DNA of 64,000 nt from an uncultured Erysipelotrichaceae bacterium. Its GTDB lineage: Bacteria; Bacillota_I; Bacilli_A; Erysipelotrichales; Erysipelotrichaceae. Of the stretch, positions 15,092 to 24,651 are shown piece by piece. Location of the stretch: NCBI GenBank assembly GCA_903789495.1, contig CAIFEQ010000001.1, forward strand, positions 26,439 through 90,438, read 5' to 3'. Position numbers and translations under genes: made by a program. How positions within the stretch are numbered: the stretch's first letter is position 1; each line of letters opens with the position of its first letter. The notes below the pieces were generated by a model, which saw nothing but the letters and a program-made list of their open reading frames with translations, was not told the DNA's origin and made no database searches.

Positions 15092-15226
15092 AAAATAACC
15101 CCCAGCGACTTAATCATAAATCAGAAACAAAGGCTTGAATATGATTTTTTTAACACATCTGTTACCTTTGAATTCTGATCTTTTCAATAGAGTTTTTCAG
15201 AAAAACCGGCCGCAGCCGGTTTGGTT

Positions 15227-16492
15227 TCAGTTGGTCTGTTCTGCTTCCGCGAGATGGGCAGGCGGCAGGTTCTTCCGCTCTTCCATCAGCTTCTGCTTGT
15301 CACTGCGGATCTGTTCCTGCAGCTGCGGATCGGCATAGATGTCCAGGGCCAGGAAGACCTGTGCCAGGATGGCCTGGTGCAGTCGGGTAAAGTGATTGAT
15401 CTCCCCGAGGCAGTATGGCAGGAACGCTTCCTCATGGCACTCATAGCCGTCATCATTGTTGGCCGCAAAGGAGCAGTAGGCCGTCGGGCAGACCTTCGAG
15501 ACATTGCCCACGTCGCTGGATCCGCTGGGTTCTTCCGTTTCGGCATGCACGTTCTGCTCGCCGATGGCTTCCAGTGCCTGCACGAAATGCTGCACCAGCG
15601 TGGGGTTGGGCTTGTAGTCATCATAGGAATTCTCAAAGTAACGCAGATCGACCGTGGCACCGGCCATCAGGGCACCGCCCCTGGCACAGTTGATGACCTT
15701 TTCCGTCAGGGTATTCAGATATTTGCGGTCCGCCGCCCGGATATACCACTTCGACTGGGCCAGGGCGGGAACGACATTGGGTGCCAGTCCGCCGTTGGAG
15801 ATGATGCCATGCATGCGGACATCCGGCGTGACATGCTGACGGAGCGCGTTGACCCCGTTGAACATCAGATAGCAGGCATCCAGGGCATTGATCCCCTTCT
15901 CCGGATGACCGGCCGCGTGGCTCGACAGGCCGTGATAGGTGAACTCGACCGAGTCAATGGCCAGGAAGCCCTGTCCCAGCCGGGTATCATGCCCGCCGGC
16001 AATATGGATCTGCATGGCCGCATCGATGTCATCGAAGCAGCCGGCATTGACCATGTCCACCTTGCCGCCGCGGGTTTCTTCCGCCGGGCAGCCCATGTAG
16101 ATGATGGTACCGGCAAAGCCGTACTCATCCTTGAGCTTTTTCAGCACCGCACAGGCGCCCAGGCAGTTGGCGGCGATGAAATTATGACCGCAGGCATGCC
16201 CGTTCTGATCGTGGCCGGGGCCATAGCCGGGCAGGGCATCATACTCGGCCAGGAAGGCCACTCTGGGAAAACCGCTGCCGTATTCGGCCTGAAAGGCGGT
16301 ATCCAGGCCGGCCAGCGGGGCCTTTACCGTAAAGCCAAGGGCTTCCAGCTGCTGCTTCAGATAAGCTGCCGACTGGTATTCCTGCATGCCGAGTTCATGA
16401 TAGTTGAAAATGGTACAGGCCGCCTCTTCAAACAGGGCTCCATCCGCCTGTTCCAGCTGGCGGGCTGACTGCTTCATGCTTTCAATGTTCAT
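15227..16492 (-). CDS. M20-family amidohydrolase (AbgB-like)
   Basis: A metal-dependent amidohydrolase of the M20D group that removes acyl or aminoacyl groups from amino acids. Visible features are the metal motif NGHACGHNFIAA, the catalytic Glu pair PAEETRGG, and the dimerisation domain with SSHAAGHPEKGINALDA. The start at 16492 has AAAGGA upstream; a reading from 16525 has none. It follows the YfcC-type transporter by 51 bases, and both sit under a lysine riboswitch. That suggests the substrate is a lysine conjugate such as an acylated lysine or a lysine-containing peptide, which is inference. Confidence 0.88.
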   Translation of the reverse strand: MNIESMKQSARQLEQADGALFEEAACTIFNYHELGMQEYQSAAYLKQQLEALGFTVKAPLAGLDTAFQAEYGSGFPRVAFLAEYDALPGYGPGHDQNGHACGHNFIAANCLGACAVLKKLKDEYGFAGTIIYMGCPAEETRGGKVDMVNAGCFDDIDAAMQIHIAGGHDTRLGQGFLAIDSVEFTYHGLSSHAAGHPEKGINALDACYLMFNGVNALRQHVTPDVRMHGIISNGGLAPNVVPALAQSKWYIRAADRKYLNTLTEKVINCARGGALMAGATVDLRYFENSYDDYKPNPTLVQHFVQALEAIGEQNVHAETEEPSGSSDVGNVSKVCPTAYCSFAANNDDGYECHEEAFLPYCLGEINHFTRLHQAILAQVFLALDIYADPQLQEQIRSDKQKLMEERKNLPPAHLAEAEQTN

Positions 16493-16543: not shown

Positions 16544-17971
16544 TTACAGACCGATGCCGATGGCCACGCTGATCATGACCAGCTGCAGGACGAAATAGAC
16601 GGCAAACAGCTTGGCAATGTACGGATACCACTTGTCGACCGGTACGCCGGAGATGCCGCAGATGGTGAAGACACCGGTCGGAATGAACATGTTGGAGTAG
16701 CCGTCGCCGAAGGTCTCAGCCAGCACGGCAACCTGACGGGAGACACCCAGCAGATCGGACAGCGGAGCCATGATCGGCATGACCGCAGCAGCCTGCCCGG
16801 AACCGGACGGGATGAAGAAGTTCATGATGTTCTGAATGACGACCATGATGATGCCGGACGCGTACTTGCCGGCACCGCCCAGCCAGGAGGACAGGCCATA
16901 GAGAATCGTGTCAATGATCTGACCGGACTGCAGGGTGATCAGGATGCCTCTGGCAAGACCCACGATCATGGCGCCGAAGATCATCTCTCTGGCCCCGTCC
17001 ACGAAGGTCTCGGCGATCTGGTTGGCATTGAAGCCGCCGATAATGCCGACGACGACCATGGAGATCATGAACAGCACGGCCAGTTCATCAATGTACCAGC
17101 CCTTGACGATGACGCCCCAGACCATCAGGGCGAAGACGACTACGAAGGTAATGCCGCAGGCCACGTTCCGGCCCGTCATCCGGATGCTGGTGAGTTCATC
17201 TCTGCTCTTGCCCTCCCCCATATGCTGGAAGCGGGTGCCGTACAGCAGGGACTTGGTGGGATCCTTCTTGATCATGCTCGCATAGCGCAGGACATAGAAG
17301 ATGCCGACGCCTTCAAAGAGCACGAAGCAGAACAGCCGGAACCACAGCATCTCTCTGGTCATGGAAATGCCCGAGACCGCGTTGGCCACGCCGACCGTGA
17401 ACGGATTCAGGGTTGCCGAGGCAAAGCCGGTCTGGACCCCGATACTGACGATGGAGACGCCGACGATCGCGTCATAGCCCAGGGCCTGGGCAATGCCTAT
17501 GAAGATCGGGTACATGCCGTAGGTTTCTTCCGACATGCCCATGGTGGAACCCAGAATGCCGAAGACGATCATGATGATGGCGAAGATCCAGTTGGCGGAC
17601 AGCCTGCCCGTCTTGCGGATCAGCGCGCCCATCAGGGCATCGAAGGAGCCGTTCTTGATCATCATCGAGACAAAGCCATAGGCGAAGATGATGAAGAAGA
17701 TGATGTCGGCTGCCTGCACGAAGCCCTGTTCGATGCTGTAGAAGATCCCGACGATGCCGACCGGCGTAGACTCGACCTGATGGTAGGAGCCCGGTACGAC
17801 AGTGGTGTATCCGGCAGCGCTCGTGGTCCTGTCGAAGACACCGGCCGGAATGATCCAGGTCAGGACGGCACAGATTGCCACCATTGCAAAGATGATGACG
17901 TAGGTGTGCGGCATGCGGAAATGATGCTGCTGAGGCGTATTCTCTGTGTTCACTGCTGCTGATTCTGTCAT
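16544..17971 (-). CDS. YfcC-family transporter under lysine riboswitch control
   Basis: A 475-residue, about 12-helix permease of the YfcC (C4-dicarboxylate anaerobic carrier-like) family. Features are PHTYVIIFAMVAICAVLTWIIPAG at the N-terminus and two repeated halves with NFFIPSGSGQAAAVMPIM, a hairpin-like substrate loop. Family members are often annotated as basic amino acid or arginine/ornithine carriers. GAGAGGAAAG precedes the ATG. The leader carries a lysine riboswitch with its own terminator, which indicates lysine, or a compound converted to lysine by the M20 partner, as the cargo. I am sure of the family; the substrate is inferred. Confidence 0.9.
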   Translation of the reverse strand: MTESAAVNTENTPQQHHFRMPHTYVIIFAMVAICAVLTWIIPAGVFDRTTSAAGYTTVVPGSYHQVESTPVGIVGIFYSIEQGFVQAADIIFFIIFAYGFVSMMIKNGSFDALMGALIRKTGRLSANWIFAIIMIVFGILGSTMGMSEETYGMYPIFIGIAQALGYDAIVGVSIVSIGVQTGFASATLNPFTVGVANAVSGISMTREMLWFRLFCFVLFEGVGIFYVLRYASMIKKDPTKSLLYGTRFQHMGEGKSRDELTSIRMTGRNVACGITFVVVFALMVWGVIVKGWYIDELAVLFMISMVVVGIIGGFNANQIAETFVDGAREMIFGAMIVGLARGILITLQSGQIIDTILYGLSSWLGGAGKYASGIIMVVIQNIMNFFIPSGSGQAAAVMPIMAPLSDLLGVSRQVAVLAETFGDGYSNMFIPTGVFTICGISGVPVDKWYPYIAKLFAVYFVLQLVMISVAIGIGL

Positions 17972-17996
17972 ACTGCTTTCCTCTCCCCGTTACCCA

Positions 17997-18029
17997 TAAC
18001 AAAAGTCGGTGCATGGGATATGCGCCGAC
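17997..18029 (-). terminator. riboswitch expression-platform terminator
   Basis: On the minus strand GTCGGCGCAT-ATCCC-ATGCACCGAC (one C-A mismatch) is followed by TTTTGTT, 26 bases before the transporter ATG. It lies downstream of the lysine aptamer and is the likely OFF state at high lysine. Confidence 0.75.
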
Positions 18030-18064
18030 CTGAAATCAGTATGGCACACCTCCATAACAACTAC

Positions 18065-18245
18065 CTTTGATAGCGCTCCGATGCCGAACGGTAACGTATT
18101 ACAGCATCGACAGTCCTGCACCTGTTGGATGCAGTCCCAACCGGAGATTCGGTCCTCCGATTTCGGCGTCGGCCCCTTTCGGACATGGTCATCGGCTTTC
18201 GGCCTCACATGCCGTACTCTTGGCAAACGCAACCTCTACCCCAAG
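18065..18245 (-). ncRNA. lysine riboswitch (L box) aptamer
   Basis: Minus-strand RNA with the L-box conserved core: GGTAGAGGTTGCG at the 5' side, AAGAGTA, GACGCCGAAAT, TTGGGACTGCATCC, GCAGGACTGTC and the closing GGAGCGCTATC. P1 forms from GGTAG (5') and CTATC (3'). Lysine binding should favour the downstream terminator and switch off the transporter/amidohydrolase unit. Confidence 0.92.
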
Positions 18246-18268
18246 ATTTTTGTTTGAGGTATGCAAAT

Positions 18269-18297
18269 AAAATAACAGCAACCCGTCGGGCTGTCAA
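18269..18297 (-). promoter_or_regulatory. promoter of the lysine riboswitch unit
   Basis: Perfect TTGACA (18292-18297), a 17-bp spacer and TATTTT (18269-18274), starting transcription just before the aptamer. Confidence 0.75.
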
Positions 18298-18308: not shown

Positions 18309-18339
18309 AAAAAGACAGACTGCCTGATGCGGCAGTCTG
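18309..18339 (-). terminator. terminator of the PBP gene
   Basis: CAGACTGCC/GGCAGTCTG stem (18316-18339) followed on the minus strand by TCTTTTTC. Confidence 0.8.
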
Positions 18340-18346
18340 ACTGCGT

Positions 18347-21300
18347 CTATTCGTATGGATGGAAGTTGCCGGCTTCGTCCCACCAGCCGCCGTCCACCCA
18401 GACACCGGTATTCGGATCGATGTAGCCGTAGGAGCTGCTGTCGGTATAGTGACCGGAGCAGGTTTCCGTCGGTGCCGTATCGGCTGTCGCATACTCCATG
18501 TATGCATACCCGGAGTCGGCGCAGGAACTGGAAGCCCTGAGGCCGGTCAGGCGGCAGACATAGTACTTGCTGATGCCAAGTTCTTCCGCCGTGGTATCCT
18601 GGATCTCCTGATCTTCCAGACCCTCGTGAATCGGATCCATATAGCTCTTCCACAGTGCCGAGGACTGATAATACGAGGAACTGTTGTAGAAGTCCACGTA
18701 GTCATCCGTCGAGATTCTCAGGAAGCTGGTGTAGTAGTGCGTATAGCCGCCGAAGCTGATAGCCTTGTGCTCATGCGTGCCGGTCTTGCCGCAGCTGGTA
18801 ACCGTGCTGAGGCGGGCATTGACACCCAGACCTTCCGTCATGTTCGTTTCCATCATGTCGGTGATCAGCCAGGCCGTCGATTCCGAGAAGACCCGGTGGC
18901 TTTCCACATTGTCGTCAGACAGGATCAGTTCTCCGGAACGGTCATATACCGCGGTATAGCAGTGCGGTTCAATGTATACGCCGTCATTGGCCAGGCAGGC
19001 ATAGGCTGCCGTCATCTCCATTGTCGTCACATCCACCGCACCCAGCGCCAGGCCGGCAGCGGTCTTCACAAGTTCATCCTCGGAGAAGCCTTCTTCCAGC
19101 ATGTAGTTATAGGAATTCTCCAGACCGACCCGTTCCAGCAGGAATCTGGCAGCCGGAATGTTATGCGACAGTTCCAGCGCCCGGCGCATGGTGATCGGAG
19201 CATCGGTATAGTCACCCTCGGGATACCCGTTGTCGACGCCGTAGCCCTCAATGGAATACGGCATATCATCCACCACGGTACCCGGATAGTCGCCTTCCTC
19301 CAGGGCCGGTGCATAGACGGACAGCGGCTTGATGCTCGAGCCGACGGCCTGCTTGGAGTCCACAGCCCGGTTGTAGCCTTCGACCTCGGTGGCCTGTTCA
19401 CGGCCGCCGACAATCGCCTTGACTTCACCGGTATGCTGGTCCATGACCACCGCCGAGAACTCGGCTTCCGATCCGCTCGAGGTCTGCGGATAGTTGTCAA
19501 ACTCCGAAGCTGCCGTCTGGACCGTCTCCTGAATGGTGGGATCAATGGTCAGATAGATCTTGTATCCGCCATTGCGGAACATGTCCTTGGTCTCGGCAAT
19601 GGCATCATCCGTGATTTCGGTTCCCTGCGCGGTCAGGTAATCTTCGGAGATTTCGGTCATCGCATAGTCGATGAAATAGGCATTGGCATAATACTCATCA
19701 CTGGTCTTGGCATTCCGCGCAGTCGGCGAAACCACCAGGGTATCTGCCATGGCCTCTTCATACTGCTCCTCCGTGATCTTGTCATTCTCCAGCATGGTGT
19801 AGAGCACCGTGTCGGTCCGCTCATTGGTCGGCGTCATGTCGCCTTTTTCATAATTCACCCGCGGACTGTAGTAGTTCGGACTCTGCACCAGGCCAGCCAG
19901 GCAGGCACACTCCCGCAGCGTCAGCTCATCCAGGCTCTTGCCGAAGTAATCCTCTGCCGCATTGACCACGCCATAGTTGGAGCCGCCCATGAGCATGGTA
20001 TTCAGATACCACTCCAGGATCTCGTCTTTCGACATCTCCCGTTCAAGCTTCAGAGCCAGGTAGATTTCCTGAATTTTTCGTTTATATGTGACCTCCTGGG
20101 TCAGGTACATGTTCTTGATCAGCTGCTGGGTGATCGTCGAAGCCCCATAGGAGGCGGTTCCGGTCAGCTGGCCCCAGATGGCCCCGATGAGCCGCTTGAT
20201 ATCGATGCCATGATGCTCATAGAAGTGATGATCCTCAATCGCAATGAAAGCATCGATCAGCTGCTGAGGCACATCTTCGATGGATACCCAGGTGATGTTC
20301 TCATTGGACCCGTAGTCCAGCAGGTATTCCCCGTTGGTGTCATAGATCTGCGAGGCCTGACTGTAGGTCGTCAGCTTGGACAGATCCAGTTCCGGCACAT
20401 CCTGCAGGTTATAGGCGATATAGCCGCACCCGGCCCCGAAAAGAGCCAGCAGGACAATCAGCACCGTCCGCAGAACATAGTGTTTCTTTTTCTTCTTTCC
20501 TCCGGCCGCTTTCCCGTTCTTTTTCTTACCGGAAGGTTTCGGCAGGCTGAAGCCTGCCAGGCCGGCTTTCTGTTCCGGCTGGGCTGTCTTTTCTGCCGTC
20601 TTCTGAGCGGCAGAGTTCCGGGCCTTTTCCGTCTGTGCAGTCTTATGTGTTTCGGCAGCAGAGGTCACCTGAACGGCCGGTTTCTGCTCTGATGCCGTGG
20701 TCTCTGCGGCCGCTGCCACGTTCTTTTCTGCGTCTGCTTCCGCTGTGTCCTTCTGGGCCGGTTTCTGCTTCTCTGCCGTCTTCTTTCCGGCTGCCGATGC
20801 AGTACCGACTGCGGCAGCGGTCTTCAGCGGCTGCTCAGACGTACTCCTCTCCGGCTCTGCGGCACTGGCATTCTTCTGCGCAGAAGCTTCCGCTGGGGAT
20901 GCCGGGCTGCTCTTCTTTTCCGTATGAAAAACCGGAATCTCGTAGGTTTCCTCACCTGCCGGATTCTTTTTCTTCGGCTGACTGCCGGTCTTGCTGCCGG
21001 AAGCAGTCTCCGGATGAAAGGCCGGCGGCACGGCTGCGCTGTGCTTTTCCAGCTGATTGACAAATTCAACTGCCGTAAAAGGATAGCTTAAGACAATCCC
21101 GGCTCCCTGCGGAGTGGGATTGGTCTCATCGCCAAGCAGAAAGACCGGCAGCTGCGGCTGCTCTTCCTTCAGGATCTGCGCCAGCCAGCGTCCCGTCTGT
21201 TTCTTCAGTGTTGAGGCAGGCAGAATGACTGCCTGATAGGTTCCGGAACTCGCTGCCTGATAGGCCGAGGAGCGTTCTGCGATAAATTCAGTCGGGATCT

Positions 21301-21370
21301 GATGGCTTTTCAGAATGGCTGCCAGATCAGACCGGAAATTCTTCTTTTCTTCAATAACCAGGATCTTCAT
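18347..21370 (-). CDS. class A penicillin-binding protein with N-terminal pseudo-receiver domain
   Basis: Bifunctional peptidoglycan glycosyltransferase/transpeptidase, 1007 residues, longer than usual PBP1a. Residues 1-110 look like a response-regulator receiver fold: MKILVIEE with the acidic pair, YQAVILPAS where the phospho-Asp should be (a Pro instead), and VLSYPFTAVEF where the Lys should be (Tyr). Residues 111-297 are an Ala/Lys/Glu-rich low-complexity linker; the membrane helix is about 298-320. The GT51 domain has EDHHFYEHHG (379-388). The transpeptidase has SSIK (Ser678), SHN (735) and KTG (862). The ATG at 21370 has GGGTGA upstream; a GTG at 21379 is an alternative. The receiver-like part is my reading of the pattern, not a search result. 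Confidence 0.92.
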   Translation of the reverse strand: MKILVIEEKKNFRSDLAAILKSHQIPTEFIAERSSAYQAASSGTYQAVILPASTLKKQTGRWLAQILKEEQPQLPVFLLGDETNPTPQGAGIVLSYPFTAVEFVNQLEKHSAAVPPAFHPETASGSKTGSQPKKKNPAGEETYEIPVFHTEKKSSPASPAEASAQKNASAAEPERSTSEQPLKTAAAVGTASAAGKKTAEKQKPAQKDTAEADAEKNVAAAAETTASEQKPAVQVTSAAETHKTAQTEKARNSAAQKTAEKTAQPEQKAGLAGFSLPKPSGKKKNGKAAGGKKKKKHYVLRTVLIVLLALFGAGCGYIAYNLQDVPELDLSKLTTYSQASQIYDTNGEYLLDYGSNENITWVSIEDVPQQLIDAFIAIEDHHFYEHHGIDIKRLIGAIWGQLTGTASYGASTITQQLIKNMYLTQEVTYKRKIQEIYLALKLEREMSKDEILEWYLNTMLMGGSNYGVVNAAEDYFGKSLDELTLRECACLAGLVQSPNYYSPRVNYEKGDMTPTNERTDTVLYTMLENDKITEEQYEEAMADTLVVSPTARNAKTSDEYYANAYFIDYAMTEISEDYLTAQGTEITDDAIAETKDMFRNGGYKIYLTIDPTIQETVQTAASEFDNYPQTSSGSEAEFSAVVMDQHTGEVKAIVGGREQATEVEGYNRAVDSKQAVGSSIKPLSVYAPALEEGDYPGTVVDDMPYSIEGYGVDNGYPEGDYTDAPITMRRALELSHNIPAARFLLERVGLENSYNYMLEEGFSEDELVKTAAGLALGAVDVTTMEMTAAYACLANDGVYIEPHCYTAVYDRSGELILSDDNVESHRVFSESTAWLITDMMETNMTEGLGVNARLSTVTSCGKTGTHEHKAISFGGYTHYYTSFLRISTDDYVDFYNSSSYYQSSALWKSYMDPIHEGLEDQEIQDTTAEELGISKYYVCRLTGLRASSSCADSGYAYMEYATADTAPTETCSGHYTDSSSYGYIDPNTGVWVDGGWWDEAGNFHPYE

Positions 21371-21552
21371 TTGCTTCACCCGTCAGCCGGGCATAATGAT
21401 TATCGCCTATTTTTCCTAAAACGCAAACATCCAAGACTTAAGATTGCTGAATTTCCGAATCGGAAATTCTGTGTGAACACGGTACCGTATGTCTGCTTTT
21501 CCGGAAAAATTCCGGTCCTTTCTGCTCTGTCGGCTGAAGACTGCCGCAATGG

Positions 21553-24453: not shown

Positions 24454-24499
24454 GATGAAAACATCCTCCTTGTCTGTCGGTTCCGGGAAGGATGCCGGA

Positions 24500-24623
24500 T
24501 GGATCTGCTCAGTCCTCACGGGCTGTTTTTTCCCATCGCTCAGGCCGCATCAGGCCTCCGTGCCATCCGCCGAATCTTTCGATCGACACGGTCCTCGTCA
24601 ACTGCCAGGCAGTTCAGGCGCTT
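24500..24623 (-). ncRNA. glmS ribozyme
   Basis: Self-cleaving GlcN6P-sensing ribozyme in the glmS leader. Conserved blocks on the minus strand: AAGCGCC, where cleavage is expected between the A at 24622 and G at 24621; CTGCC/GGCAG for P2; GGCAGTTGACGAGG; GATTCGGCGGATG; CCGTG/CACGG for P3; and the 3' GTGAGGACTGAGCAGATC block. The 3' limit is approximate. Confidence 0.92.
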
Positions 24624-24651
24624 CTTTTGTTCTTTCTTCCGGAACGTTTCC

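Follow-up and report, generated by a model that had tools for sequence, protein, structure and literature searches.

What does a bacterium gain by placing a YfcC-type transporter and an M20 amidohydrolase under the control of a lysine riboswitch (L-box)? The question is raised by a 64,000-nucleotide stretch of the genome of an uncultured Erysipelotrichaceae bacterium (contig CAIFEQ010000001.1, positions 26,439 to 90,438; hereafter the window). An earlier note, made from the letters of the window, had described an L-box with its promoter and terminator ahead of only these two genes, and proposed that the pair is repressed by lysine and supplies it. We consider it rather probable that the leader is a lysine OFF switch working through transcription termination, and that the two genes form an operon under its control for taking up and hydrolysing Xaa-Lys dipeptides or conjugates. 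This answer draws on what can be read from the sequence, namely the riboswitch, its expression platform, the operon, the kinship of the enzyme, the missing biosynthesis genes and the recurrence of the arrangement.

The Rfam model RF00168 covers 18063..18246 on the minus strand from end to end (model positions 1-182 of 182), with 109.1 bits against a gathering threshold of 30. The E value of 3.5e-28 rules out a chance match, and the 2.1-Mb assembly contains no other L-box. Because a terminator-like hairpin closes the penicillin-binding-protein gene upstream, the L-box transcript is a separate one. The elements of the locus are as follows.

18316..18339, minus strand: terminator-like hairpin (9-bp stem and T-run) that ends the upstream penicillin-binding-protein gene
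18269..18297, minus strand: promoter, TTGACA-17-TATTTT with TG before the -10 element, 10 of 12 consensus positions
18236..18260, minus strand: 5' strand of P1 with its extension (ACCUCAAACAAAAAUCUUGGGGUAG), pairing with 18047..18073 in the minimum-energy fold and in a duplex calculation (-25.8 kcal/mol)
18063..18246, minus strand: L-box aptamer (RF00168 match)
18047..18073, minus strand: 3' strand of P1 with its extension, whose GGAGGUG end is common to the antiterminator
18016..18053, minus strand: antiterminator hairpin (GGAGGUGUGCC...GGCGCAUAUCC), -17.0 kcal/mol alone, excluding extended P1 and the terminator
18004..18030, minus strand: intrinsic terminator hairpin (-13.5 kcal/mol), then TTTGTTAT / UUUGUUAU
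16544..17971, minus strand: DcuC/YfcC-type membrane transporter, 475 amino acids (PF03606, 283 bits)
15227..16492, minus strand: M20 metallo-amidohydrolase, about 421 amino acids (TIGR01891, 238 bits), in a reading frame open to 16525
15201..15222, minus strand: operon-end terminator AAACCGGCTGCGGCCGGTTTTT, a hairpin and T-run seen in the sequence

The likely true start of the amidohydrolase is 16492, which has a ribosome-binding site (AAAGGA) and at which its homologues also begin. The hairpin and T-run at 15222..15201 close the operon after this second gene, so the restriction of the L-box to two genes holds, as do the promoter (18297..18269) and the terminator. The identities of the two genes were also borne out by the profile scores; the interval given for the pair, 16544-18245, leaves out the amidohydrolase.

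In the folded leader of the window, extended P1, the antiterminator and the terminator exclude one another. The antiterminator is built from the 3' end of the extended P1 strand and the terminator's 5' half, as predicted for a lysine OFF switch that works via transcription termination. At low lysine the antiterminator (18053..18016) would form and the operon would be transcribed; the leader RNA is expected to bind lysine, upon which extended P1 would capture the 5' strand of the antiterminator, the terminator (18030..18004) would form and transcription would stop. A counterpart of the terminator is present in all 14 homologous leaders, and an antiterminator hairpin in all 12 of them that were folded; between the Solobacterium and Holdemania groups its letters are wholly different and the pairing is kept. 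In the window leader extended P1 is strong; among the others it varies.

The amidohydrolase scores 238 bits against TIGR01891 (curated cut-off 153.75). In a profile search it matched HmrA (5.9e-81) and the human Xaa-Arg dipeptidase PM20D2 (6.9e-57), with AbgB-type proteins far behind (3.8e-23). The best matches of its predicted model (mean predicted local distance difference test score, pLDDT, 90) were 3ram and entries of the human beta-alanyl-lysine dipeptidase, with target template modelling (TM) scores of 0.91 and 0.87; HmrA and human PM20D2 are thus the nearest solved structures by both sequence and structure. The expected metal ligands Cys112, His114, Glu150, His174 and His364 and the general base Glu149 (numbering of the open reading frame) are present, and the di-metal ligands and the catalytic Glu are invariant across the compared sequences. 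Both the sequence and the predicted model place the enzyme in the PM20D2/HmrA branch of the M20 family. PM20D2 is named a beta-alanyl-lysine dipeptidase in the title that Veiga-da-Cunha 2014 bears where PMC4633449 cites it, and in titles of Protein Data Bank entries; entry 8zel holds PM20D2 after soaking with a beta-alanyl dipeptide. Amm19, a bacterial M20 enzyme related to Xaa-Arg dipeptidases, cleaves an arginine dipeptide (PMC12424672). The window enzyme shares with human PM20D2 the fold, the metal ligands and about 30% identity; in contrast, the human protein is a eukaryotic cytosolic enzyme without a transporter partner, and the substrate of the bacterial one, an Xaa-Lys dipeptide or related N-acyl lysine, is a prediction.

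The transporter matches the Pfam family DcuC (PF03606) with 283 bits against a gathering threshold of 23.1. Against NF008611, the equivalog model of Escherichia coli YfcC, it reaches 268 bits, below the cut-off of 500, and orthology with E. coli YfcC (31% identity) was rejected on this score. A sequence search found no related solved structure. The closest matches of the predicted model (mean pLDDT 83) are the AbgT-family proteins YdaH and MtrF, followed by dicarboxylate carriers, with VcINDY among the weaker ones; since the AbgT model is absent from the transporter's Pfam matches, the likeness to AbgT is one of fold only (TM about 0.63). AbgT and the M20 hydrolase AbgA/AbgB act on p-aminobenzoyl-glutamate, a conjugate that is imported and then cut. 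The window pair resembles this system in its predicted AbgT-like fold and its M20 partner, and the system offers a precedent for import followed by cleavage of an amide conjugate. However, the sequence of the window transporter matches DcuC rather than AbgT, its partner is of the PM20D2/HmrA branch, and the pair is under lysine control. The favoured cargo of the transporter is a compound that contains lysine: most likely it would import an Xaa-Lys dipeptide (an ordinary X-Lys or, for example, beta-Ala-Lys) or a related N-acyl lysine. The M20 enzyme would hydrolyse this compound inside the cell to free lysine.

The window genome encodes eight YfcC-like proteins, and a scan of the regions around the other seven genes found no L-box. 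The proposal that this locus assigns a likely cargo to the permease family goes too far if taken for the whole family: only two separate subgroups of YfcC are seen to carry an L-box, as described below, and of the eight members in this genome one is concerned. Other YfcC-like transporters of the same genome (L058, L059 and L060) adjoin M20 peptidase genes of other subgroups without an L-box, and pairing with M20 may be general in the YfcC family.

Lysine synthesis appears to be lost. We did not find dapB or dapF in the assembly, which is 94.8% complete, and homologues of lysA and dapA were present only below the family cut-offs; the bacterium probably cannot make lysine. Within the genus, dapB is missing in all six genomes that bear the operon and in 13 of the 30 that do not (Fisher p 0.014; removal of genomes below 85% completeness with their counts gives 0.025; both values uncorrected for kinship). 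In at least one genome, G011, the absence of dapB is probably due to a contig break. In relatives of the genus that possess diaminopimelate (DAP) pathway genes, the L-box precedes lysA-dapA-dapB. The L-boxes examined in relatives without dapB precede a family-3 ATP-binding cassette (ABC) transporter, or an alanine-type symporter and an Amidohydro_3 enzyme, genes that make sense for a cell dependent on imported lysine.

Further L-boxes were noted. In six genus relatives without detectable dapB (L248, L249, L250, L251, L253 and L255) the L-box stands before the three genes of a polar amino acid ABC transporter, a likely lysine importer; Pfam matches confirm the transporter in L248, and its binding protein is confirmed in L255. 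In three others (L075:3641-6774, L076:5513-8604 and L252:347-3444) the L-box lies directly before a sodium:alanine-type symporter and an Amidohydro_3 (YtcJ-like) enzyme, so that lysine is predicted to control another pair of transporter and amidohydrolase, unrelated to the first. In L071-L074 the L-box precedes only a similar Amidohydro_3-like gene. The second L-box of Holdemania filiformis (L258:2168-3838) precedes an oligopeptide-type solute-binding protein (SBP_bac_5), which again points to lysine from peptides.

Does the arrangement recur? The transporter alignment was scanned against 84,980 species genomes, and the best 80 loci were searched for L-boxes with Rfam and a custom model; an earlier regular-expression scan had overlooked the cases in Holdemania and CHKCI006 and yielded probable false matches. 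All 14 loci with at least 48% transporter identity have an L-box directly upstream, and the M20 gene comes next in each of the 13 whose contig continues; at 41% identity or less, the L-box was found in 0/66 of the best 80 loci. The carriers comprise ruminant Solobacterium and other Bacillota metagenome-assembled genomes, CHKCI006, three Holdemania species, and one metagenome-assembled genome labelled Oscillospiraceae that is possibly misbinned; Holdemania filiformis DSM 12042 is a carrier available in culture. In four Solobacterium relatives (L064, L065, L066 and L067) the L-box-linked YfcC is followed by two or three M20 genes in tandem, and in the window by one; the copies are possibly paralogous subunits or enzymes for different substrates.

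The second survey covered 118 genomes of the Alkaliphilus order (Peptostreptococcales), and YfcC was strongly matched in 69 of them. Seven of the 69 have an L-box directly upstream of a YfcC gene whose product is 35-36% identical to that of the window, and closer homologues in the same order (43-47%) lack it. In six of the seven, an M20 gene follows whose product is 48-49% identical to the window enzyme. On the YfcC tree the L-box label takes three changes, at least two of them forced by supported branches, and the tree as reconstructed needs at least two separate L-box associations. The M20 tree is compatible with a single origin. Lysine control therefore seems to follow the type of enzyme more closely than the subtype of transporter.

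The seven genomes resemble a reported case. Clostridioides difficile has four L-boxes, one of them on CD3100-3099, that is, yfcC and an M20D amidohydrolase, whose function was left open (2024 review, PMC11477304); the seven probably represent the same system. The pairing is thus already in print, and our literature searches for functional work on YfcC paired with M20 gave only this review. The order of L-box, YfcC-type transporter and M20 amidohydrolase is the same as in the window; the transporter in the C. difficile-like genomes, which also have four L-boxes, is a distant YfcC (about 35% identity), and the M20 is 48-49% identical. What is new is limited to three things: how far the arrangement extends, that it recurs separately, and the specific prediction that Xaa-Lys dipeptides or conjugates are imported.

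Repression by lysine is supported, and a lysine-supplying role well supported, by the terminator platform conserved in the leaders tested, the missing DAP pathway, the nearness of the M20 enzyme to beta-Ala-Lys dipeptidase and the recurrent L-box association. The observation made by the earlier note is confirmed, and its interpretation is partly supported. Several points weigh against dipeptide import and hydrolysis. Identity to PM20D2 is only about 30%, and Tyr314 of PM20D2, mutated in the crystal work, corresponds to Tyr (Y301) in the window and to Phe in several L-box homologues. HmrA, to which the enzyme is equally close, is to our knowledge not known as a lysine dipeptidase. The NCBI family name of the transporter is 'putative basic amino acid antiporter', and gene absences are uncertain in an assembly that is 94.8% complete. 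Finally, the seventh Peptostreptococcales genome, G142, has an L-box and YfcC without a neighbouring M20, which would also fit transport of free lysine.

This last reading survives best among the alternatives, and we regard it as unlikely but worth serious attention: the transporter would carry free lysine, taking it up or exchanging it for a different basic amino acid, with the M20 enzyme in a side job such as cutting intracellular peptides. Besides G142, it is favoured by the fact that transport targets of L-boxes are usually amino acid carriers (PMC5584792). LysP, LysW (NhaC type), YvsH and LysXY are, like the window transporter, under L-box control; however, they belong to other protein families, and no partner dipeptidase is described for them in the L-box literature that we found. 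Three points speak against this reading: an M20 gene comes directly next in all the other cases of an L-box-linked YfcC that have sufficient flanking sequence, the same kind of M20 stands beside both YfcC subgroups, and it is present in tandem copies in the Solobacterium relatives. It is quite improbable that the pair imports a cargo unrelated to lysine, such as a dicarboxylate or another peptide, with lysine only signalling amino acid supply. The Pfam family is named after C4-dicarboxylate carriers, and VcINDY is among the weaker structural matches; but the other seven YfcC-like genes of the window genome have no L-box, and two L-box associations unite the same M20 type with different YfcC subgroups. 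That the M20 enzyme is the N-acetyl-diaminopimelate deacetylase of lysine biosynthesis, with an incidental transporter, recalls L-box operons that combine an 'amidohydrolase' with dap genes, e.g. in Thermotogae (PMC5584792), but it is hardly credible and was rejected, as the genome lacks dapB, dapF and a good dapA or lysA, and the enzyme is nearest PM20D2/HmrA rather than the DapE or YxeP types.

Two neighbouring features of the window may be recorded. In the PBP1A-type penicillin-binding protein upstream (18347-21379, minus strand), the first 110 residues bear a weak likeness to a receiver domain (FleQ 5.8e-5, Response_reg 4.7e-4) and are joined by a long Ala/Lys-rich linker, which is unusual if the GTG start is right. 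An ordinary glmS ribozyme lies at 24486-24633 (minus strand) upstream of glmS.

YfcC/DcuC transporters are common and have multiplied in some gut bacteria, with eight copies here, mostly without an assigned cargo. An L-box joined at least twice to YfcC and one kind of M20 provides a specific, testable cargo for one YfcC subgroup, and also suggests a physiological role for a bacterial branch of the PM20D2 family. More tentatively, we propose that a YfcC subgroup with an AbgT-like fold may be an Xaa-Lys importer paired with a bacterial PM20D2-type dipeptidase, and that direct lysine control of the pair arose at least two times, here replacing lost lysine synthesis. If true, a YfcC-type transporter would gain a peptide cargo, and peptide import and hydrolysis in one operon would be an L-box output not known before. 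The locus and its relatives suggest that gut lysine auxotrophs retain lysine sensing after loss of the DAP pathway, the L-box staying in place on scavenging genes.
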